In this document: in pieces, positions 9,198 to 43,100 of the stretch
Position numbering within the stretch: position 1 is the first letter of the stretch
Layout: each line of letters opens with the position of its first letter
Assembly (NCBI GenBank): GCA_018266845.1
Contig: JAFDZO010000007.1
Span: forward strand, 1,917-65,916
Length of the DNA: 64,000 nucleotides
Source: Bacteroidota bacterium
Lineage (GTDB): Bacteria > Bacteroidota > Ignavibacteria > Tepidaquicellales > Tepidaquicellaceae
Reading direction: 5' to 3'
Made by a program: the position numbers and the translations under genes
Notes under the pieces: generated by a model
Databases searched by the model: none
Seen by the model: only the letters and a program-made list of their open reading frames with translations
Told to the model about the DNA's origin: nothing

Positions 9198-11144
9198 TTA
9201 TTCAACAGTTTGTAACTGTAATTGTTCCCATTCCTGAGTAAGCTGTTCGGCTTTTTTTCTTGCGGAATTGTACTCGTCAGTAGTCTTTTGTATGTCAGTG
9301 CCGGATTTGTAAAAATCCTCATTAGCCATTAATAATTCAAGTTCTTTTATTTTATTTTCGCACTTCTCAAGTTCCTTCTCTACAGTTGTAATTCTCTTTT
9401 TTAGCTCGCTGTTTTTTTTCTGCTGCTCTGCTTTGCGTTTCTTCTCTTCATTTTTATCTGCGTGAGAAACTTCCTTTTTTATCTCCTGCTTCATTACAAC
9501 GGGCTGCTGCTCAACTTTCGTTTTTTGTTTGTCCGTTTTTTCTTTCTCTTCAAGGTAATAAGAACAGTTGCCGTAGAAAACTTTTATCTTCTTATTTTTT
9601 ACTTCGATAACCTTATCCACTATTCCGTCAATAAAATCCCTGTCATGCGATACAATCAAAACTGTGCCTTCATATTTCCTCAATGCGTGCATCAGGACTT
9701 CCTTTGATTTCATATCAAGGTGATTTGTCGGCTCATCAAGTATCAAAAAATTTGACGGCTCAATGAGCATCTTCGCAAGTGATAATCTCGACTTCTCCCC
9801 TCCCGAAAGCACTGCCACCTTCTTAAAAACATCATCGCCTCTGAACAAAAAGCTGCCGAGTATTGTACGTAAGCTTTTTCTTATATCTCCCGTCGCTGCC
9901 TCTTCCATTGTTTCAAGCACCGTCTTATCGCCTGCCAATTCTTCCGCCTGATTCTGCGCATAGAATTTTTTATTCACCAGATGCCCGTCTTTAACTACAC
10001 CATCAAAATCTTTATCTATATCTGCGATGATTCTTGTAAAGGTTGATTTCCCCGCGCCGTTCACTCCGACAAGAGCAATCTTTTCGCCTCTTTCAATTAT
10101 CAAATCCAATCCTTCAAGAACGTTATTCACTCCGTCGTATGTTTTTGTAAGACCTTCAATCTCAATTGTAATTTTTCCAGAGTGAGTCGCAGGCGGAAAT
10201 GAAAATGCAACTGCCGCTTCTTCATCTTCTATCTCGATTAAATCCAGCTTATCAAGCTGCTTTATTCTGCTCTGAACTGCCTTTGCCTTAGATGCCTTAT
10301 ATCTGAAGCGCTCTATAAATTTTTCCTGCTGCTTTAAATATTTCTGCTGGTTGTTATACTGATTTTCAAGAAGCTCTTTTCTTACTGCTTTTTCCTTTTT
10401 ATAGAAAGAATAATTTCCTCCGTACTCAGTAACATTGCCCATAGAAATTTCAATCGTGCGGGTGGTAAGATTATCAAGAAAATTCCTGTCGTGCGAAACA
10501 AGCACAATCGCTCCCTGATAATTCTTCAGATAATTCTCCACCCAAATTAATGATTCAATATCAAGATGGTTCGTCGGCTCGTCAAGTAAAAGTATGGAAG
10601 GATTTTGAAGCAGAAGTTTTGCAAGGGCAATTCTCATCTGCCATCCGCCGCTGAACTCATCAGTCAGTCTCTCAAAATCTTTTTCAAAAAATCCCAGACC
10701 GATTAATATTTTTTCTATCTTCGATTTTAATGTATATCCGTCAAGCGCCTGAAATCTTTCCTGCAGCTCTCCGTATTCATTCAGCAAATCCATAAAATCG
10801 TCATTGCCCGGCTCGGGATGATTGCTCATTTCATTTTCAATTTCAGTAAGCTCTTCCTGAATTTTATTTATATCTCCCGCCGATGAATATACCTCCTCAT
10901 ACAGAGTATTGCCTTCGTATCTTATTCCTTCCTGCGGAAGGTATCCCATTGTAGTATGGCGTGAAAGCGCCACTTCCCCGGAATCAGGCTTATTTATCAA
11001 AGCCATGATTTTCAGGAGCGTTGACTTTCCCTGTCCGTTAGAGCCGACAAGAGATACTCTTTCCTTGCCGCCTACGCGGAGTGAAACTTCATCGAATAAT
11101 ACTCTTGCGCCGAATGCAACCGTTATGTCAGTTAATGAAATCAA
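9198..11144 (-). CDS. ABC-F family ATPase (ribosome-associated translation factor type)
   Basis: This 648-residue soluble protein carries two ABC ATPase domains and no membrane segment. The first has GSNGQGKST (Walker A, about 34-42), a FSGGW signature and LLLDEPTNHLD. The second (about 325-535) has GVNGAGKST, LSGGEKSR and LILDEPTNHLD. Between them lies the basic helical linker typical of ABC-F proteins. After about 560 comes a Lys/Glu-rich coiled-coil tail like that of Uup-type members. ABC-F proteins bind the ribosomal E site and help stalled translation, or protect against antibiotics. Which subgroup this belongs to (YdiF/Uup-like) is inferred from the tail only. Confidence 0.92.
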   Translation of the reverse strand: MISLTDITVAFGARVLFDEVSLRVGGKERVSLVGSNGQGKSTLLKIMALINKPDSGEVALSRHTTMGYLPQEGIRYEGNTLYEEVYSSAGDINKIQEELTEIENEMSNHPEPGNDDFMDLLNEYGELQERFQALDGYTLKSKIEKILIGLGFFEKDFERLTDEFSGGWQMRIALAKLLLQNPSILLLDEPTNHLDIESLIWVENYLKNYQGAIVLVSHDRNFLDNLTTRTIEISMGNVTEYGGNYSFYKKEKAVRKELLENQYNNQQKYLKQQEKFIERFRYKASKAKAVQSRIKQLDKLDLIEIEDEEAAVAFSFPPATHSGKITIEIEGLTKTYDGVNNVLEGLDLIIERGEKIALVGVNGAGKSTFTRIIADIDKDFDGVVKDGHLVNKKFYAQNQAEELAGDKTVLETMEEAATGDIRKSLRTILGSFLFRGDDVFKKVAVLSGGEKSRLSLAKMLIEPSNFLILDEPTNHLDMKSKEVLMHALRKYEGTVLIVSHDRDFIDGIVDKVIEVKNKKIKVFYGNCSYYLEEKEKTDKQKTKVEQQPVVMKQEIKKEVSHADKNEEKKRKAEQQKKNSELKKRITTVEKELEKCENKIKELELLMANEDFYKSGTDIQKTTDEYNSARKKAEQLTQEWEQLQLQTVE

Positions 11145-11254
11145 TTTCTTTTTACAATAAAATTAGCCCTAAAGATACCGATTACATGTAAAAATTTATA
11201 TGGATTTCAATTTCACCGAAAAATTGACAAATTATTTTTAACACACTTAAAAAA

Positions 11255-11776
11255 ATGAACTTCTCACTCGAAAAATCAATGGAGATTCTTGAAAGAACTC
11301 CGAATGTAATTAAAGAATTATTAGACGGGCTTTCCGGCGATTGGACAATGCAGAACGAAGGCGGCGATACTTGGACTCCCTATGACGTTCTCGGACATTT
11401 AATTCACGGCGAACTTGCTGACTGGATTGGAAGAACTGATATAATTTTGTCAGATGGTCCAGATAAAAATTTCAAGCCCTTCGATCGCTTTGCGCAGTTT
11501 GAAGAAAGCAAAGGAAAGACTCTAAAAGATTTAATCGGAGAGTTTATGATACTGCGCATAATGAATCTGCAAAAATTGAAAGAGAGAAACATCACGGAAA
11601 ATGATTTGAACAAAACAGGCATCCATCCTGTTTTTGGTGAAGTAACACTAAAGCAGCTTTTATCAACATGGGCAGTTCACGATTTGAATCACCTTTCGCA
11701 AATAATCCGAACAATGGCTTATCAATATAAAGATGAAGTCGGTCCTTGGAGAGAGTATTTAAGAATTGTAAAGTGA
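11255..11776 (+). CDS. DinB-family protein
   Basis: The 173-residue protein has the DinB/YfiT four-helix-bundle layout. The three metal-binding histidines are visible as DVLGHLIHGE (about residue 48) and WAVHDLNHLSQI (about residues 141-152). Family members are metal-dependent enzymes of low-molecular-weight thiol and related chemistry (for example bacillithiol transferases), or have unknown roles. It stands alone, divergent from the ABC-F gene, with a TTGACA-like box about 30 bases upstream. The substrate cannot be inferred. Confidence 0.85.
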   Translation: MNFSLEKSMEILERTPNVIKELLDGLSGDWTMQNEGGDTWTPYDVLGHLIHGELADWIGRTDIILSDGPDKNFKPFDRFAQFEESKGKTLKDLIGEFMILRIMNLQKLKERNITENDLNKTGIHPVFGEVTLKQLLSTWAVHDLNHLSQIIRTMAYQYKDEVGPWREYLRIVK

Positions 11777-11947
11777 GTTGTGAGGTATGAATTATGAGGT
11801 ATGAATTATGAATTATGAATTATGAATTATGAATTATGAATTATGAATTATGAATTATGAGGTGTGAATTATGAATTATGAGGTGTGAATTATGAATTAT
11901 GAGGTATGAGGTATGAATTATGAATTATGAGGTATGAATTATGAGGT
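11777..11947. repeat. Heptanucleotide tandem tract, GAATTAT/GAGGTAT units
   Basis: The tract begins right after the DinB stop codon. About 24 units of 7 bases follow in register, mostly GAATTAT with interspersed GAGGTAT or GAGGTGT variants, including an uninterrupted run of eight GAATTAT units. It contains no gene. Similar 7-base-period tracts with other motifs occur elsewhere in the window. Confidence 0.95.
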
Positions 11948-11950
11948 TAC

Positions 11951-12090
11951 AAAGAATAACGGATAACGAATAATGAATAACGGGTAACGAGCAACGAATA
12001 ACGAGCAACGAATAACGAGCAACGAATAACGAGCAACGAATAACGGGCAACGAATAACGAGCAACGAACAACGAGCAACGAATAACGGGC
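11951..12090. repeat. Heptanucleotide tandem tract, AACGAAT/AACGAGC units
   Basis: This tract directly follows the GAATTAT tract but uses a different 7-base motif, mainly alternating AACGAAT and AACGAGC (a 14-base higher-order unit), with AACGGGC variants. It runs to the base before the stop codon of the histidine kinase gene, and so fills the whole rest of the intergenic gap. Confidence 0.95.
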
Positions 12091-13815
12091 TTAAAACTTC
12101 AATATAAACTTAGAGCCTTTTCCTTCTTCTGACTCGGCGTGTATTTCTCCTCCCATTAGTTCGGTAAGTTTTTTTACTATAGAAAGACCCAAGCCTGTGG
12201 AGCTTTCTCCGGCAGTGGGCTTATTGCTCGTCTTAGCAAATTTTTTAAAAATATTTTTCATCTCATTCTCTTTAATCCCCAAACCGCAGTCAATAACTTC
12301 TATAAATTTCTTTTCTTCCTGTTTATAAATTTTCACGGTTACCGGACTTCCCGGATAAGAATATTTTACGGCATTAGAAAGTAAATTGCTGATTATTTCT
12401 CTAAAGGCAATCCTATCTGATTTTATCATTACATCGCCGTTACTTTCTACATTGAATGATATTTTCTTGTTCACAATCTGCTCCTGCATTTCCTCTATAA
12501 TTTCATTTACTGCTCCAACAGCATTTACATCCTCCGGTTTCAGATTATAGTCCCCTCTCTCTATTGCATTCACATCAAGCAGATGCTTTATTATCTCCTG
12601 CATTTTGTTTGTAACAGCTTCGGTTTTTTCCAGTCTCTTTATAATATCTTCCTGTGAAAAACGGGCAATGTTTCTTTTTAAATGAGATACCGAAAGCAAT
12701 ATGCTGCTCAATGGATTTTTCAAATCGTGGGCAACAAGCCCGAGGAATTCATTTTTTTCTTCATTCAGTCTTACAAGCTCCACATTTCGCAGGCGCTCTA
12801 TTTCCGCTTTCTGCTTTTCATGTTCAACCTTATATGAAATCTCAAGCTCATTTATACTTCTTAAAGTATCTTCATCTAGTCTTTTAGATTTTAGCGAGTG
12901 AAATTTCTGATAATACTCCAATGCTGTTTTATAATCTTCAAGAACAGTATAAGCAGTTGAATACGATTCGTAAATATGCTCCCTGAAAACTTCCAGATGT
13001 TTATCTATCATCATCTCGCATTTTCTAAGATACTCCAGCCCCTTCTCGGGGTTTCCCTTGTTAATGTAATTCAACGCATAATTCTCATAGCAGATAATCA
13101 GCCACTCCTTATTGCCCCTCTTCTCAAAAATACTTATAGCCTTATCATAATATTCTTCAGCAATATCAAATTTTTCTTTATGAAAATGCACCAAACCTAA
13201 AACAACATAAGTTTCTCCTAAAATAGAATCATCTCTGTAAGTGAATAATTGATTTAAGCATACTATAGCATAATCTTTCGCATTTTTGTAGTTTTGCAAA
13301 TCAAGGTAACACTTAGCTATATTCAAAATGATAAGGCTGAGATTTTCATTATCTCCTATCTCTCTTTTTATTTTCAGCCCCTGCTTGTAGCTTGATATTG
13401 CCTTCTCAAAATTACTAATGCTGTAATGAACTGAGCCGAGATTGTTTATTACGTTCGATGCCATCACCATATCGTTTTCTTTCATAGCTTCATCATAGCA
13501 TATCTGAAGGCAGTCAATGGCTTTTGAATAGTTTCCTGTTTTGCCGTAAGTCATCCCCAAGCGAAGCAAAATGCCGGTCAGCTCTACATGCTCATTTTCG
13601 CCTTTGTAAAAAAAATACGCCTTGTCTAAAAACCTTATGGCATCAATAAATTTTTCGCTTTTTAAATAGCATGACCCAAGCGAGTAATAAAGAAACGAAG
13701 CCTCATTGCCGCTTAGCTCATCCTCAGCAATTAATTCAATCTCTTTCAGCCTTAAAATTTTTTCGTCATTGCTGAGAGATTTACTATTGATAATATTTTT
13801 TACCCATTCAAACAT
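12091..13815 (-). CDS. Soluble TPR-containing sensor histidine kinase
   Basis: The 574-residue protein has no signal peptide or membrane segment. Residues about 1-310 are tetratricopeptide repeats (for example AIDCLQICYDEAMKEND, AISSYKQGLKIKREIGD). They are followed by a coiled coil, then a HisKA domain with the phospho-acceptor in VAHDLKNPLSSI (about 365), and an HATPase_c domain with SNLLSNAVKYS, DCGLGIKENEM and GLGLSIVKKL. It is a cytoplasmic kinase that senses through protein contacts. No response regulator is adjacent. The kinase at 49373-51166 has the same architecture and nearly identical signature segments, so the two are paralogs. Confidence 0.92.
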   Translation of the reverse strand: MFEWVKNIINSKSLSNDEKILRLKEIELIAEDELSGNEASFLYYSLGSCYLKSEKFIDAIRFLDKAYFFYKGENEHVELTGILLRLGMTYGKTGNYSKAIDCLQICYDEAMKENDMVMASNVINNLGSVHYSISNFEKAISSYKQGLKIKREIGDNENLSLIILNIAKCYLDLQNYKNAKDYAIVCLNQLFTYRDDSILGETYVVLGLVHFHKEKFDIAEEYYDKAISIFEKRGNKEWLIICYENYALNYINKGNPEKGLEYLRKCEMMIDKHLEVFREHIYESYSTAYTVLEDYKTALEYYQKFHSLKSKRLDEDTLRSINELEISYKVEHEKQKAEIERLRNVELVRLNEEKNEFLGLVAHDLKNPLSSILLSVSHLKRNIARFSQEDIIKRLEKTEAVTNKMQEIIKHLLDVNAIERGDYNLKPEDVNAVGAVNEIIEEMQEQIVNKKISFNVESNGDVMIKSDRIAFREIISNLLSNAVKYSYPGSPVTVKIYKQEEKKFIEVIDCGLGIKENEMKNIFKKFAKTSNKPTAGESSTGLGLSIVKKLTELMGGEIHAESEEGKGSKFILKF

Positions 13816-13839
13816 TTCTGTTTCTGCTTTTCATTCGAA

Positions 13840-14739
13840 TTATTTCACTTTGTTTCTGATAATTCTCACCGCATCAATTACTCTCGGTCCCGGGCGAAAG
13901 ACAACGTTGTTATCTACAACTATAAAGTTATTTTTCTTCACGGCATCCGAAACGCTGAGATGTTTTGATAGCTCATCTATTTCAACCTTCAGCTTATCGG
14001 TTTTTGTTGTATCATAAGGAAGCAAAATTGAAGCAGGATTTTTAACAGTAATATCTTCGTAGCTGATTGTGGGATAGTCCATGGAAGACTCGGCATAAAT
14101 ATTTTTTAAACCGCCAAGCTCCATAATTTCATTAATGAACGAAGTTTTACTCGCCGTCATTATAGGGTTTGTGCCGATGATAACAATACATTGAGATTTT
14201 TCTTTCGTTTCAGAAAGCAGCTTCAGGCTGTCTCTTTCATGAAGCAGTTTGCTGCTTAAAGCTGCTGCCTCTTTTTCCATCCCTGTCAGCTTTCCGAGAC
14301 TGTTCAGCATGGAAGCAACTCCGTTTACATTCTTCGCGTTCAGCACAAAAATTTTTATTCCCAGATTTTGCAGAGTCTGGTACATAGGGCGGTTAGTGGA
14401 TTCCACCGTAATCAGCACAACGTCCGGCTTCAAGGAAGCAATCAATTCATAGTTTGCATTATCATACCCGCCGACTTTCGTTTTCTGCTTTGCCTCCGGC
14501 GGGTAATCACAAAATTCGGTAACGCCCACAACTAAGTTCTGCGCGCCGATAGCGTATAAACCTTCGGTGATGTTGGGGGCTATTGAAACAATCCGCTTTG
14601 GAAAGGAATCAAATTTTACCTCCACGCCTAAATCATCTTTAAGAGAAAATTTTGATTGGGTAACTTCGGGATTTTTTTTTCCGCAGGAAGAAAGAACGAA
14701 AGAGAAAAAAAATAAAATAAAAATTTTTTTAATAGACAT
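13840..14739 (-). CDS. Periplasmic binding lipoprotein of a metal-chelate ABC importer (BtuF-like)
   Basis: The ATG at 14739 is chosen because it gives a lipoprotein signal ending LSSCGKK; the reading frame extends further upstream to a GTG. The mature part is a helical-backbone binding protein (Peripla_BP_2), shown by the opening KRIVSIAPNITEGLYAIGA, the segment VGVTEFCDYPPEAKQKTKVGG and then LIASLKPDVVLI. BtuF-type cobalamin receptors carry the same EFCDYPPEA-like stretch, so cobalamin is the first guess and an iron-siderophore the alternative. No permease or ATPase gene lies beside it. Length is about 299 residues from this start, normal for the family. Confidence 0.85.
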   Translation of the reverse strand: MSIKKIFILFFFSFVLSSCGKKNPEVTQSKFSLKDDLGVEVKFDSFPKRIVSIAPNITEGLYAIGAQNLVVGVTEFCDYPPEAKQKTKVGGYDNANYELIASLKPDVVLITVESTNRPMYQTLQNLGIKIFVLNAKNVNGVASMLNSLGKLTGMEKEAAALSSKLLHERDSLKLLSETKEKSQCIVIIGTNPIMTASKTSFINEIMELGGLKNIYAESSMDYPTISYEDITVKNPASILLPYDTTKTDKLKVEIDELSKHLSVSDAVKKNNFIVVDNNVVFRPGPRVIDAVRIIRNKVK

Positions 14740-31340: not shown

Positions 31341-31410
31341 TGGAAAAAAATTATACAGAGACACAAAATTTTACTTCTACACGACCGTATTAACTTCCCT
31401 AAAACAAAAA

Positions 31411-31478
31411 AGACGCATTGAACGCGTCTCTACTTACAATTAAATCTCAATACCCACTACTCAATACTCAATACTCAT
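31411..31478. repeat. AGACGC palindrome followed by a short ACTCAAT heptamer tract
   Basis: AGACGC (31411-31416) and GCGTCT (31424-31429) form an inverted repeat of the same family as 7455-7481. From about 31444 to 31478 the sequence runs in 7-base steps (CTCAATA, CCCACTA, CTCAATA, CTCAATA) up to the stop of the ftsE gene. Confidence 0.7.
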
Positions 31479-34678: not shown

Positions 34679-36916
34679 ATGTCATTGGATTTAAGCATTC
34701 TCAACGAAGAACAGAGAAGAGCAGTTGAAGAAATTGAAGGACCGAGCATAATCATAGCCGGCGCCGGAAGCGGTAAAACAAGAGTTCTAACTTACAAAAT
34801 AGCGCATCTCATCGAATCAGGTGTCAGCCCCTATGAAATTCTTGCGCTGACATTCACAAACAAAGCAGCAGCCGAAATGAAAGACCGTATCGGCAAGCTG
34901 GTGGAAATCAACGCCGATAGAATCTGGATGGGCACGTTTCATAGCATCTTTGCGCGCATTCTCCGGTTTGACGGGGAAAAAATCGGTTTCGATAGAAACT
35001 TCACAATTTATGATTCTGACGATTCTGCAAATGTTGTAAAGCAGATAATGCAGAATAAAAATATGTCTATTGAAAACCCCACGCCGAAAAGTATTCATTC
35101 GGAAATCAGCAAGCAGAAAAATAAACTCATCACACCCGAAGCGTATTCGATGTACGCGAAATCGCCTTTTGAAAGACGAGTTGAAGAGATTTATCCCGTT
35201 TATCAGGAAACTTTACTGAAAAGTAATGCAATGGATTTTGATGACCTGCTGATGAAACCAATTGATTTATTTCATAACAATCCCGACGTTCTTGATAAAT
35301 ATCAGGAGCGTTTCAAATTCATTTTAGTTGACGAGTATCAGGATACAAACCGCGCGCAGTATCAGATTGTAAAAATGCTTGCGCAAAAATATAAAAATAT
35401 TACGATAGTCGGAGACGATGCGCAGTCAATTTATAAATGGCGCGGCGCGGAGATACAAAATATTTTTGATTTTGAAGAAGATTTTGCCGGCAGAAAAATT
35501 TTTAAGCTGGAGCAAAACTACCGCTCCACAAAAAAAATCCTCGCGCTTGCAGATGATGTAATAAAGCGCAACAGGAAACAGTTCAAAAAAGATATTTGGA
35601 CCGATAACCACGACGGCGAGCAGGTCGTCCTGCTTGAAACAATGTCCGATAAAGATGAAGCATACAAAGTTACCCGATACATCACCGAAGAAATTTATAA
35701 GCAAAAATATAACTTCAAAGATTTTGTAATTCTCTACCGCACAAATGCGCAATCGAGAATTATAGAAGACTCCTTACGCCATAACGGCATTCCGTATCTT
35801 ATTGTCGGCGGCATACGTTTTTATCAGAGAAAAGAAATTAAAGATATAATTGCTAACTTAAGAATAGTTGTAAACCCCAATGATAATGAATCACTCATTC
35901 GTATCTTGAACATAAAAGAAGGGGTTGGAAAAACGACTATTGATAAATTGAGTAAAGCTGCAGAGTTGGAAGGCAAGCAGCTCATCGAAATTATTAAAAA
36001 CATTGATGATTATCCTGAGTTCGGCGGTCGCGCAAAAATTTTGCTTTCGGAAGTATGGAAGTTTGCATCAAAGTACAAATATCTTAAAGACGAAATGTCC
36101 CTCACCGAGCTTGCAAAAAGCATCATTGATGAAACGGGCTTAATGTATAAACTTCGTCTTGAAAACACTCTCGAGTCAGAGGAGCGCTTAAGCAACTTGC
36201 AGGAATTAATTTCAGCAATCGCCGAGTATGATGATAATACCGATGACGCAACGCTGGAAGGATTTTTACAGGAAGTTTCGCTCGTTGCCGATATTGATAC
36301 GCTCGATGAAAAAAAGAATGCTGTAACGCTTATGACAATTCACGCTGCAAAGGGACTTGAGTATCCCGTTGTTTTTATTACGGGACTTGAAGAGGGGCTT
36401 TTCCCTTCGATGAATTCCATTTCCTCGCAGGAAGATATTGAAGAAGAGCGCCGTCTGTTTTACGTTGCCGTTACCCGCGCAAAAAATAAGCTCTATCTTT
36501 CTTATGCAAATATGCGCTATCGCTTTGGAACGCCTTCGTATCAGATGAAGTCTAAGTTTATCAAAGAAATTTCCGATAATATTTACAGCGAGCATATTAA
36601 GTACGAAGGAATGAAAATTCCGCAGGCAAAAAAAGCCACGACTTCGCAAGGATACAGAAGCCAGAGCATTTCAGTTGCCTTCAACGCAAACAAAGCTGCA
36701 TATAAAAAGGAAGAGAATTTTTCACAGGCAGAAGATACTTTCTCCGACATTAAAAAAGGCGTGATTGTAAATCACAGCACGTTCGGCAAGGGCAGAGTGC
36801 TTGATGTTACCGGCAAAGGCGTTGATAAAAAAGCAGAAATTTATTTTGATGATATTGGCTTGAAGAAAATTGTGCTGAAGTATGCGAAGATGACCGTCTA
36901 TAATTCTGAATTATGA
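34679..36916 (+). CDS. pcrA: UvrD/PcrA-type superfamily 1A DNA helicase
   Basis: The 745-residue length fits PcrA/UvrD (720-770). Helicase motifs: LNEEQRRAVE (Q motif), AGAGSGKTRVL (I), LTFTNKAAAEMK (Ia), FILVDEYQDTN (II), GDDAQSIYKWRGA (III), LEQNYRS (IV), VTLMTIHAAKGLEYPVVF (V) and EERRLFYVAVTRAKN (VI). The last 60 residues form the Tudor-like RNA-polymerase-binding fold (IVNHSTFGKGRVLDVTGKG). It unwinds DNA 3' to 5' in nucleotide-excision repair and in rescuing stalled replication or transcription. Single gene, followed by a heptamer repeat zone. Confidence 0.95.
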   Translation: MSLDLSILNEEQRRAVEEIEGPSIIIAGAGSGKTRVLTYKIAHLIESGVSPYEILALTFTNKAAAEMKDRIGKLVEINADRIWMGTFHSIFARILRFDGEKIGFDRNFTIYDSDDSANVVKQIMQNKNMSIENPTPKSIHSEISKQKNKLITPEAYSMYAKSPFERRVEEIYPVYQETLLKSNAMDFDDLLMKPIDLFHNNPDVLDKYQERFKFILVDEYQDTNRAQYQIVKMLAQKYKNITIVGDDAQSIYKWRGAEIQNIFDFEEDFAGRKIFKLEQNYRSTKKILALADDVIKRNRKQFKKDIWTDNHDGEQVVLLETMSDKDEAYKVTRYITEEIYKQKYNFKDFVILYRTNAQSRIIEDSLRHNGIPYLIVGGIRFYQRKEIKDIIANLRIVVNPNDNESLIRILNIKEGVGKTTIDKLSKAAELEGKQLIEIIKNIDDYPEFGGRAKILLSEVWKFASKYKYLKDEMSLTELAKSIIDETGLMYKLRLENTLESEERLSNLQELISAIAEYDDNTDDATLEGFLQEVSLVADIDTLDEKKNAVTLMTIHAAKGLEYPVVFITGLEEGLFPSMNSISSQEDIEEERRLFYVAVTRAKNKLYLSYANMRYRFGTPSYQMKSKFIKEISDNIYSEHIKYEGMKIPQAKKATTSQGYRSQSISVAFNANKAAYKKEENFSQAEDTFSDIKKGVIVNHSTFGKGRVLDVTGKGVDKKAEIYFDDIGLKKIVLKYAKMTVYNSEL

Positions 36917-37046
36917 ATTATGAATTGATTACTATGGGATAGAATACGTTTGAAATCTAAAAATTTGAAATCTGAAATTAACTTAATCTTATTTCTTATA
37001 TTAAATTTATAATTCATAACTCATAATTTATAATTCATAATTAAAA
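36913..37046. repeat. ATAATTC/GAATTAT repeat zone
   Basis: GAATTATGAATTATGAATT overlaps and follows the pcrA stop. From about 37008 to 37043 the inverse motif ATAATTC/ATAACTC runs in 7-base steps (TTCATAA, CTCATAA, TTTATAA, TTCATAA). The two blocks are inverted relative to each other, 75 bases apart, and could pair in single-stranded form. Confidence 0.8.
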
Positions 37047-38780: not shown

Positions 38781-38902
38781 GCCGTCGTTGCTGGTCTCTG
38801 ACTAACAATTAAAAATTTGTAGAAACCCTGCCAAGTCGGGGCAGGCAGCGATACTCGCCTCTCCCGTACATATAAACGAGACGCAAAGTATTGCGTCTCT
38901 AC
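38781..38902 (+). repeat. Structured repeat element D with preceding degenerate palindrome
   Basis: 38787-38809 is a degenerate copy of the GTTGTTGGTC/GACCAACAAC hairpin. From 38819 the element reads GTAGAAAC, then CCTGCC/GGCAGG (loop AAGTCGG, 38827-38845), GCGA/TCGC (loop TAC, 38848-38858), then GAGACGCAA/TTGCGTCTC (38878-38899), and closes with GTCTCTAC at 38902. It is collinear with the reverse complement of 37601-37685. Confidence 0.8.
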
Positions 38903-38962
38903 GAACAACCAACAACGGACAACCAATAACGAACAACCAATAACGAATAACTGACAACGAAA
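38901..38962. repeat. Heptamer tract of ACGAACA/ACCAATA units
   Basis: About eight 7-base units (ACGAACA, ACCAACA, ACGGACA, ACCAATA, ACGAACA, ACCAATA, ACGAATA, ACTGACA) continue directly from element D. Confidence 0.85.
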
Positions 38963-39782: not shown

Positions 39783-40135
39783 GCTAAATTTTGTAATGGG
39801 GAAATAGTAATAATCAGGATTTTCAAAATCTGAATAAAAGAATTGCAACTTGAAATTTGAAACCGAAAAGAATGTTACTTTTTTGTTACTATTAGTAACA
39901 CAATACCGTGCTTTGAATAGAAATATTTTAAAAAATGGAAGCGATTTTCCCTTCCTTTTTAAAGAGGGGGTCAGAATGTTACAAAAATGTTACTCTTAAC
40001 TGTTCCGACGCAGGAGCATCGGAACAAGAAGTAAAATGTTACAATAATGTTACTTTGTTCAATTAACAATTAGGAATTAGAAATTAACAACGAGCAACGA
40101 ATAACGAACAACTAACAACGAGCAACTGACAACTA
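39783..40135. repeat. Intergenic zone with five AATGTTAC motifs, hairpins and a heptamer tract
   Basis: AATGTTAC occurs at 39871-39878, 39975-39982, 39986-39993, 40035-40042 and 40046-40053. The last four form two pairs spaced 11 bases. GTTAC/GTAAC at 39885-39899 and TGTTCCGA/TCGGAACA (about 40000-40025) are hairpins. From about 40081 to 40146 a 7-base tract (AACAACG, AGCAACG, AATAACG, AACAACT and so on) runs into the end of the activase gene. No gene is seen. Confidence 0.8.
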
Positions 40136-43100
40136 TCAACTAGCAACTAAATCAGATTTCTTCCTGAACTTTTCCGGGATAACAATCTCAACTTCCCTCT
40201 GCGGTTTCGGGAAAAACCCGCTAGTGCTATGACCAATGTTCTGCTCGCGTAGATGCTTTTGCAGCTCAAGCTGAACGCGGATTTTTCTTTCGTACTCCTT
40301 CAGCTTTTCTTCGATAGTAAGTATCTTGTTCTTTTTTGCGACCATGTCTTCGCGGTAGCGTTTTAAGAAGTAGCTTATGGTTTCAATACGGATTTTTATA
40401 GCGCCCGTCGGTTTGTTCTCATCAATATCTTTGAATGAGAAATAAGGTGTTCCCGATGACTCGACAATTTCCTGAACTACAGTATAAATCGGCGCATCGT
40501 GTCCGCACTTGAACGAAGAAAGCTCAAGCGCAACTAAGTTAGGATGACGCGCAGTAAATTTTGAAGCCCAGACCTTGCGGGATGTATTTTCAGAGTAAGA
40601 ATTTTTCCATACGTCTTCAATATCCATGGGCGAGCGGATAATTCCGGCTCTTACTTCATCGCCAAAAAGATTTTCAAGGGTTTCGTCGTCCGTGGGCAAA
40701 GCATCCTGAAAGAAAACCGGATAGCCGAGCTTCTGGAACTCTTCAAGAATTTCGTGATTAATACCTGGGTCATTGTGATAAGGTCTGCCTAAAAGAACAA
40801 TACCTATTCTGTCTTCGCGTTCAAGCTGATTAAGAACTTCCTTTGATTTCCATTTCAGGTCATCAAAGAACCGGCTCAATGCTTTGTATCCTTCTTTAAC
40901 GGCGCGTTTGTTTTCTTCCTCTGAAAGCCCGAGGCGTTCATGAAATTCTTTATATAATTGTCGTGCTGTAAGCTGTTCATTATTAAGCTGAATGAAGGGA
41001 CACAGATATTCAAGTCCCGACTCCTTAAACAAATCACCTTCCTTAGTGAAGGCAGCTTTTGCCGCTTCTATAGTTGCAGTGATTGTTGGGCAGGCAGTAT
41101 GTGCCTGAGCATATTCTAAATCCGATGGCATTGTATCAACAATCGGTGCAAAAATAAAATCTAACTTTTTCTTTTTATGTTGTACGTAAACAAGATTATG
41201 AACATGAGGGATAGCAACTTTCGAAGGAAAACACGGGTCAATGCTTCCGCGTTTTGCTCCGGCTTTATACATTTCTTCAGAGGTATATTCGCTGAATACA
41301 AAATTTCCCAGCTTAATGCCAAGCGACTCAAAATATGCAGTGAAGAACGGAGTATGCGAATACATATTAAGCAGACGCGGCATTCCGATAACAATTTTTT
41401 CGCGCTGCGAAATTTTTTCAAGCTGTTTTGAAATATGCTCTTCGGCTTGCTTGTTCTTTAATAATCTTTTTATTGGAGAATTGTAAACTCTTGCTTTAAT
41501 TTCTTCCTCTGTATCTTTTACTGTCGGCGGTTTAACAGGCATCCATACTTTTGTTGCTGCTTCATCCACCATGTTGGGATTTGCTTTCTTGATTGCATCA
41601 AGTCCTGATTTGATTCCTTTCATATCGGCAATATCTTCAACGGTTCCCTTTTCGCAAGTAGCAATAATTAAACGCTGAATGCCTGCTTCCATAGGGACTT
41701 TTGATTTCGGGTTAACAATTTTTTCCGGCTGAATAATATTAAGCTCGACAAATTTTTTCTTTTCCTCTTCAAAATGTTCAGGTTCAATATGTTCAGTCTT
41801 AACATCTATAAAAGTTCTGAGGCATTTATTCTTGCAGAAGTAACACCGAGTATCTTCGGAGCGCGTTGTCTTGTATAAAATTTGCGATACTTTTTCCAGA
41901 CCTATAAATTGTGTCCTATGTCCGTTGTGATATAATCGCGCGGCTTCAATACCGCAGCCAATTGCTCCGGCTTCACCTGTGTGCTTATGAACATAAATAT
42001 TTGGAGTAATGCCTGAGCCTTTGAATCTTTCTTCGATAAAATCCACCTGTGATTTTACTGCAGCGAGATTATGCTGGGTTCCGCCCTGCAATACAAAAGT
42101 AGAGCCGAGTTTTGCAAGATTTGGGATTTGAGAAACATAAAGCCAGATATTTTTCGGAAGAACGTTTGCTAAGCCAGCCATGATTTCTTCTGCTTTCCAG
42201 CCTTGTCGCTGGAAGTCAACAATATCAGACTGCATAAATACAGCGCAGCCGTAACCAAAGGTAGGGAAAGTTTTAGCAGAAAAAGCAACGTTTGCAAACT
42301 CTTCTACTTCATATCCGAAACCTTGTGCAGTTGACTGAAGGAAGTAACCGTTACCTGCAGAGCATTGAGTATTGAGTTTGAAATCAACAACGCGTCCCTG
42401 ATTGAGAATTATGATTTTTATATCCTGTCCCCCGACATCGCAAATAACATCTGTCTGCGGATAGAAATGAAGTCCTGCCTGAGTGTGTGCAACAGTTTCA
42501 ACGAGGGCAACGTCTGCGTGAAGAACGTCTTTCAAAATATCTTTTGCATAGCCGGTAGTTCCGACACCAAGGATTTCCAAAGTTGCGCCCTGCGCTTCGA
42601 CCTGTTCCTGAATTTTGCCAAGTATATCAATACAGTCTTCAATCGGATTTCCCTTTGAAAGCTGATATGCTTTTACTAAAACTTGTTTATCAAGTGATAC
42701 TAGCGCTGCTTTTGTAGAAGTTGAGCCGCCGTCAATTCCTATAAATCCGCGTACAATTTCTCCCGGCTTAAACGTTGCGGGAGTAAACTTTTCTACTTTA
42801 TATTTTTGAATGAAGGCATCAAGCTCTTCGGGAGATTTTGAAAGTCCCGTTGTATTTCCGGTTGAGTTAAGTTTCTTTTCAGCTTCACGTCCGAATTTTA
42901 TATAATCTTCTAAACCTTTATAACCTTTATAAACACCAATATGATTTTCCTCTTCTTTACCGAATTCAACTGCGCCGATAGCAGCAAAGTATTGAGCGTT
43001 ATCGGGAACACGGATAAGCTCTTCAATTGGTTTATCGGGAACCTGTACTTTTCTTTCCTGCCAAATCTTCGGAATATTGGAACGCCAGCAGTCAATCATT

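Follow-up and report, generated by a model that had tools for sequence, protein, structure and literature searches.

A 44-unit heptamer array between convergent genes of an Ignavibacteria genome, tentatively read as a lone arm of an S23-type element

The gap between two convergent genes in a genome of the Ignavibacteria (GenBank assembly GCA_018266845.1) is occupied by 44 gap-free head-to-tail 7-base units, which were recovered by direct reading, TRF and our own scripts at positions 11781–12088 of the window, i.e., the whole 64,000-nucleotide stretch of contig JAFDZO010000007.1 that was analysed. This target array belongs to a repeat class of its genome that is intergenic, mostly abuts gene ends and in part forms inverted pairs. 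S23 genes (PF05635), in this genome as well as across many phyla, tend to have tandem arrays at either side, mostly inverted and matched in word and period. We tentatively read the target as a lone, gene-less, slippage-expanded arm of a 23S-rRNA-intervening-sequence/S23 hairpin-type element, a reading that is plausible and may well be wrong.

The target and its neighbours lie in the window as follows:

11255 to 11776, plus strand: DinB_2-family gene (open reading frame; PF12867, E 1.5e-11), with a TGA stop at 11774–11776
11781 to 11948, plus strand: first half, comprising 24 units, most of them TGAATTA or TGAGGTR, also TGAGGTT (TRF, scripts)
11949 to 11955, plus strand: bridging unit ACAAAGA, with the 7-base register unbroken across it
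11956 to 12088, plus strand: second half of the array, 19 units, mainly ATAACGA / GCAACGA (ATAACGR/GCAACGA kind), in 14-base alternation
12091 to 13815, minus strand: convergent gene of a TPR histidine kinase (open reading frame; HisKA, HATPase_c, TPR), with its stop codon at 12091–12093

The array begins 4 bases past the DinB-like stop and ends 2 bases short of the kinase stop codon; it spans the gap between the convergent genes, as the preliminary description had stated, without ending exactly at a stop codon as had also been claimed, and the units counted there (about 24 and about 18) agree with those listed above. The lag-7 score reached 81 in the first half and 26 in the second, compared with a maximum of 11 in 60 copies of the window generated by an order-2 Markov model, which confirms that adjacent 7-base arrays are real and not a chance product, while a lag-14 score of 81 in the second half bears out the 14-base higher-order repeat described for it. 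The two motifs had been called unrelated, and their words do differ, but AATTATG (n = 16) and AACGR (n = 18) occupy one 7-base register, and the array at 40060–40149 shows the same change of words, from AATTA to AAC[GT]R, with the same offset. The sub-words aligned in this comparison were chosen freely by us, so the agreement is worth only a factor of 7, and with moderate support the "two motifs" may be one continuous array whose words changed. A repeat collapsed or expanded during assembly is very improbable: the genome is a draft in 46 contigs, but the units are imperfect and ordered, and similar arrays were found elsewhere in this genome and in most of the relatives searched, one of them assembled in 8 contigs.

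Heptamer arrays were surveyed at a score threshold of 11, lower than that of a first strict survey, and leaving out loci L013 and L022–L028, which had partly been picked for known matches. In 698 kb of this genome (G000; window included), 17 period-7 and 8 period-14 arrays were detected (2.3 and 0 in shuffled sequence), 14 and all 8 of which, respectively, were intergenic. The corresponding counts were 14 and 5 in 400 kb of G001, a member of the same genus (shuffled 2.3 and 0.7), 4 and 1 in 200 kb of G025 (0 and 0), and 0 and 1 in 200 kb of G014 (0.3 and 1.0). Other periods were raised as well (e.g., period 15 with 14 arrays in G001, none intergenic, and period 21 with 9 arrays in G000, 3 of them intergenic); among intergenic arrays, period 7 was the leading one in G000, G001, and G025. 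Further members in the window are:

31451 to 31477, minus strand: short array of reverse-complement GAGTATT words, flush with a gene end
36902 to 37042 (36902–36926 and 37004–37042), no strand assigned: inverted pair without a gene, belonging to the same repeat class, in a 132-bp gap
38901 to 38961, plus strand: array of ACGAACAACCAATA (TRF, lag scan)
40060 to 40149, plus strand: array with the AATTA-to-AAC[GT]R change (lag scan, word register)

By eye, palindromic repeats of the GTAGAGACGC / GCGTCTC type adjoin the heptamer arrays at 31410–31477 and 38880–38961, and a palindrome of this type accompanies a 49-base tandem array of 16.7 copies at locus L016 (7358–8168).

In the four samples, 49 arrays lay in gaps between genes; 39 of these were no more than 10 bp from a gene boundary (11.2 expected under random placement in the same gaps), and 30 of the 37 one-sided arrays lay at stop codons, a nearness that may be inflated because ORF ends were called mechanically and the arrays are rich in stop codons. 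The purine-rich strand of these 37 arrays pointed into the gap in 24 cases and out of it in 10, with 3 unclear; the second half of the target and the array at 40060 have the opposite polarity, which speaks against the S23-arm reading of the target. Within 600 bp, 12 of the 39 intergenic arrays of G000 and G001 had an inverted partner and 7 a direct one (cut-off taken from a reversed-sequence control, at its 95th percentile), and the 27 without an inverted partner above that threshold likewise weigh against an origin as S23 arms. A majority of one-directional arrays is what would be seen if they had grown by ordinary slippage without S23 ancestry, with some property of replication favouring slips of 7 bases where gaps tolerate them, and with S23 elements doing no more than borrowing this process for their arms. 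This alternative is possible, if doubtful; the 14-base alternation and the runs of words in the target resemble local expansion, and over-representation of heptamers in bacteria has already been published (PMC4692102).

The frequent contact with stop codons would also suit a functional element of the 3' region, such as a terminator, an mRNA stabiliser or a protein-binding site common to both convergent transcripts, and the target strand folds somewhat better than its shuffles (z −2.0). Against such a role, which we consider quite unlikely, no terminator-like site was found in 11600–12300, a Rfam scan of 11000–14500 gave no match even at E 1, the words vary between array sites, and no array is present at the orthologous place in G001, where a different ORF of 235 aa overlaps the DinB-like stop and is followed by the next conserved gene. 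The lack of an array in G001 and the closeness of arrays to gene ends were also counted in favour of the S23-arm reading. The target was thus either gained in this lineage or lost in that of G001. The observations lend no support to the array being a binding site for a protein that recognises 7-base-periodic DNA, for which a search had been proposed in the preliminary description. Promoter-like matches numbered 13 in 11600–12300, compared with 2.9 in shuffles, and fell mostly on the minus strand inside the repeat. The kinase gene found no full-length match in G001 above 36% identity (parts reach 46%), and it was dismissed as cargo of an element, since nothing links it to the array.

Two inverted array pairs in this genome enclose a gene of 116–119 aa that belongs to PF05635 (23S_rRNA_IVP). 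Six such S23 genes are present, all on contigs other than that of the target, and by inspection each of them is flanked left and right by inverted tandem arrays; both flanks were detected by the lag-7 scan at L109, L111, L112, and L114, the right one alone at L110 (short arm) and neither at L113, where the units are 8 bases long. All three of the genome's S23 proteins tested (L109, L022, and L112) matched TIGR02436 (four helix bundle protein), the best named match of the S23 query was a MAG of the Ignavibacteriae (61% identity), and the one solved structure that matched was PDB 2gsc (XCC0516). The arrays of this genome outnumber its six S23 genes, a further point against treating such arrays as S23 arms. 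At L114, the heptamer arm that precedes the S23 gene continues the S23 frame without a stop codon and would encode ISNFRFQISNL-like repeats, and N-termini may be misannotated through in-frame arms of this sort. No mobility enzyme was identified; a reverse transcriptase, considered as the mover because of a bAvd match below the cut-off, was rejected, as the genome has no PF00078.

An alignment of ten S23 proteins (a Bacteroidota-like query) matched 588 loci, and the best 80 of these yielded 75 usable ones. In this broad set, the mean local lag-7 score was 9.8 to the left and 10.0 to the right of the gene (other lags 3.3–5.3), and the left flank scored 19.4 against the reverse complement of the right one, compared with 9.7 for swapped partners; relative to the distribution of swapped pairs, 51 of the 75 loci exceeded the 95th percentile and 22 also the 99th. 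For control ORFs (n = 267), the lag-7 scores were 4.7 and 4.1, and true pairs scored 10.8, compared with 10.3 when swapped; after removal of four ORFs located at S23 loci (n = 263), the values were 4.6 and 4.0, with 10.7 for true pairs. Among the few controls that reached a score of 9, lag 7 was the commonest (11 of 26 on the left; 5 of 19 on the right, there tied with lag 12), as expected where heptamer arrays are frequent. The relatives set (29 usable of 35 family-search loci) reached 11.7 and 13.9 at lag 7, and 24.6 against 13.3 for swapped partners; here 15 of the 29 loci exceeded the 95th percentile of the swapped-pair distribution, but only 3 reached beyond the 99th.

When 106 S23 loci were scored for period, 46 could be called on both sides, 39 on one side only and 21 on neither; the left and right periods were equal in 45 of the 46 (7/7 in 35, 8/8 in 6, and 9/9 in 4), the sole discordant element having periods of 7 and 9. 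The sharing of one period by different words is indeed the puzzle, as had been pointed out earlier; strict uniqueness of the number 7 fails for the class, as 8- and 9-base arms exist. Of 119 elements examined, 77 had words on both sides, and in 57 of these the left and right arms had a word class in common, compared with 3.7% of swapped pairs. Such inverted arms, matched in word and period and including matched 8- and 9-base ones, are left unexplained by ordinary slippage. Folds with at least 15 arm-to-arm pairs were predicted for 96 of the 119 elements, for 36 of 119 when the right flank was swapped and for 21 of 80 control genes. Selection on arm pairing at the RNA level was rejected: in 90 elements with an arm alignment, G.U and A.C mismatches stood at 108:121 (p 0.43), with no RNA-specific signal, so that copying or formation at the level of DNA, and not maintenance through RNA folding, may account for the symmetry of the arms, whose words differ from one element to the next. 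The same ratio, which gives no sign that S23 elements maintain arm pairing in RNA, also counts against a functional 3' element.

Among the printed loci (n = 17), the same period was present on both sides in Acidobacteriaceae (L188), Betaproteobacteria (L189), Sedimentisphaerales (L195), and Planctomycetota (L210); this was also the case for Chloroploca (L211), Cloacimonadota (L214), Parvularculaceae (L220), and Bacteroidota loci. Two Methanophagales loci had an arm period on one side only, and by period score no arm was seen in Gemmataceae (L167), Opitutae (L176), Nitrospirales (L185), and Bowmanella (L207). A search of twelve non-Bacteroidota genomes returned 30 loci, of which 12 were repeats by sequence and 18 new, 17 of these being usable; they scored 10.1 and 7.7 at lag 7 (3.1–5.1 at other lags) and 18.1 against 8.6 for swapped partners, and 13 of the 17 exceeded the 95th percentile. 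On plasmids, 24 records matched the S23 protein, and the 13 loci analysed, 12 of them cyanobacterial, gave 20.5 when the left flank was matched to the reverse-complemented right flank, compared with 10.6 for swapped partners. Inverted arms were present on plasmids of Nostoc edaphicum, Nostoc C052, Nostoc ATCC 53789, Calothrix brevissima, Anabaena, Geminocystis, and Azospirillum, and weaker inverted ones on those of Stanieria and Picosynechococcus (8-base), while the direct orientation of the arms in Pseudanabaena and Nostoc HK-01, and weak arms at the Calothrix 7716 and Aulosira loci, do not favour the S23-arm reading. Three armed S23 genes of cyanobacterial plasmids (L296, L297, and L305) lie within CRISPR-associated clusters (cas6/cas4 twice, cas10/cmr3 once), and another (L293) lies between genes for ribonucleotide reductase subunits.

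Across 40 genomes, the density of S23 genes was correlated with that of the array pattern (rho 0.52, falling to 0.40 once the reversed pattern was included), with kinship ignored, a single word family counted, and a reversed "control" that happens to be a frequent heptamer word in some genera and hence not a clean background. This reversed pattern (heptamer AAGTATT) had 192–430 matches per strand in G002, G006, G017, and G024, which indicates that word preference differs between lineages. Three genomes free of S23 had only 1, 4, and 7 pattern matches, reversed pattern included, which tells against ordinary slippage, although some S23-bearing genomes had equally few: G011 (2 genes, 0 matches) and G014 (4 genes, 3 matches) are nearly without GAATTAT-type arrays, contrary to what the S23-arm reading would lead one to expect.

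Filled and empty sites were compared directly in Azospirillum lipoferum 4B, in which a plasmid locus (L303) lies in a 23S rRNA gene (RF02541) that carries an intervening sequence, and a 23S copy on another plasmid (L306) does not. Over 584 bases on one side of the site and 644 on the other, the two copies are identical, and 473 bases in L303, comprising the arms and the S23 gene, replace a 19-base hairpin-like stretch of L306; no target-site duplication was seen at this pair. In this one 23S gene, the element thus stands in place of a native hairpin, and the exactness of the pair means that the arms belong to the element there. None of 24 other S23 loci matched Rfam at the gathering score, which places them outside known rRNA. 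A second comparison concerned the gap between a nitrilase-like and a DPD-like gene (named by eye). The start of the DPD-like gene was sought in 40 genomes and gave 19 matches, of which 12 were examined (strong ones, or G017 at a contig end) and 7 weak ones left out. An S23 element with arrays lies in the gap, near both neighbours, in G000, G001, G002, G006, and G017, while in G007, G009, G010, G012, G013, G021, and G022 the gap has neither an S23 gene nor a lag-7 array.

The target itself shares with S23 elements a tandem arm of 7–9-base units near a gene boundary. It has no inverted second arm within 600 bp (scores of 9 and 9 for inverted partners, compared with 10 and 10 in the reversed control), its two halves score as direct and not inverted partners, neither an intact nor a decayed S23 gene was seen beside it (the neighbours being DinB_2 and the kinase), and only isolated single words, with no further array, occur nearby. 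With neither an S23 gene nor an inverted partner at the site, its descent from an S23 element is inferred. Among the six S23 elements of this genome, one (L111) has the target words AATTATG and AACTCAT in its arms, but target words also turn up in 8 of 113 foreign elements, and the second-half words are found in none of the genome's own S23 arms, both of which are unfavourable to this descent; matches of second-half words to the arms of L219 and L128 were dropped as weak. This sharing lends descent thin support, and ordinary slippage would likewise be consistent with so few words in common. MITEs are gene-less transposon derivatives with terminal inverted repeats and target-site duplications, and the target has no inverted partner that could form such repeats.

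If the target is indeed a lone S23-type arm, the element would replace hairpins or gaps beside stop codons, and its arms would grow and shrink by replication slippage, whole units at a time, so that words would drift and spread along an array while its register is kept. Loss of the S23 gene and of the other arm would then leave a one-directional array between the convergent genes, probably without a dedicated function today. It is unlikely, though conceivable, that the scattered bacterial arrays of 7-base (7–9-base) units, including those of cyanobacteria, Xanthomonas, and Bacteroidota, are largely arms or footprints of one class of hairpin-replacing elements in which only S23 is conserved. 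S23 proteins are widespread, and if this were true, one class of elements would explain both the long-known excess of heptamer repeats and the spread of 23S intervening sequences. If arms and arrays are one, the questions about S23 intervening sequences and about heptamers could be tested through filled and empty sites, and heptamer arrays would become candidate markers of past element sites.

The closest known system is the intervening sequence of 23S rRNA with its S23 gene (PF05635, TIGR02436). In Coxiella, it has terminal inverted repeats around the S23 gene and three tandem GACAGAT heptamers, varying in number by strain, before the start codon; rRNA copies of such elements are excised by RNase III, and the function and origin of 23S intervening sequences are called unclear (PMC4990558). 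The elements described here are alike in having inverted arms with heptamers (GACGGAT/GACAGAG in the Azospirillum 23S gene), whereas the target is intergenic, has neither an S23 gene nor a second arm, and counts 44 units. The heptamers of Xanthomonas (GGGAATC) and Nostoc (GGGGA(C/T)T) form mostly intergenic arrays like the target but with different words; inverted ("convergent") pairs number 70 and 75 in two xanthomonads, G-quadruplexes are discussed, Calothrix heptanucleotides are mentioned, and the heptamer excess is said to have received little further study (PMC4692102). Direct repeats of TAACTGA, which occur in Beggiatoaceae, cyanobacteria, and some Bacteroidetes and reach as many as 43 copies in several members of the last two groups, resemble the target as heptamer direct repeats, but they consist of one fixed word and, in a Beggiatoa-type genome, mostly precede start codons (PMC4679880). 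Both papers describe heptamer arrays without S23: the terms "S23" and "XCC0516" occur 0 times in the available text of PMC4692102, and "S23", "four helix", and "intervening" are absent from that of PMC4679880. Within the open literature searched, and as far as the available texts go, the Coxiella paper alone was found to mention heptamers in an S23 element (PMC4990558). A general link between S23 elements and heptamer arrays was not found in the open literature; subscription papers were outside the scope, so a claim that the link is unpublished would be weak. Cyanobacterial short tandemly repeated repetitive (STRR) sequences are built of 7-base units. The target resembles them in its several intergenic tandem 7-base units with sequence variants, and the comparison with cyanobacterial heptamers proposed in the preliminary description proved fruitful at plasmid-borne S23 loci, where the cyanobacterial heptamer–S23 link was examined and inverted arms of the same kind flank 8 of the 12 S23 genes.
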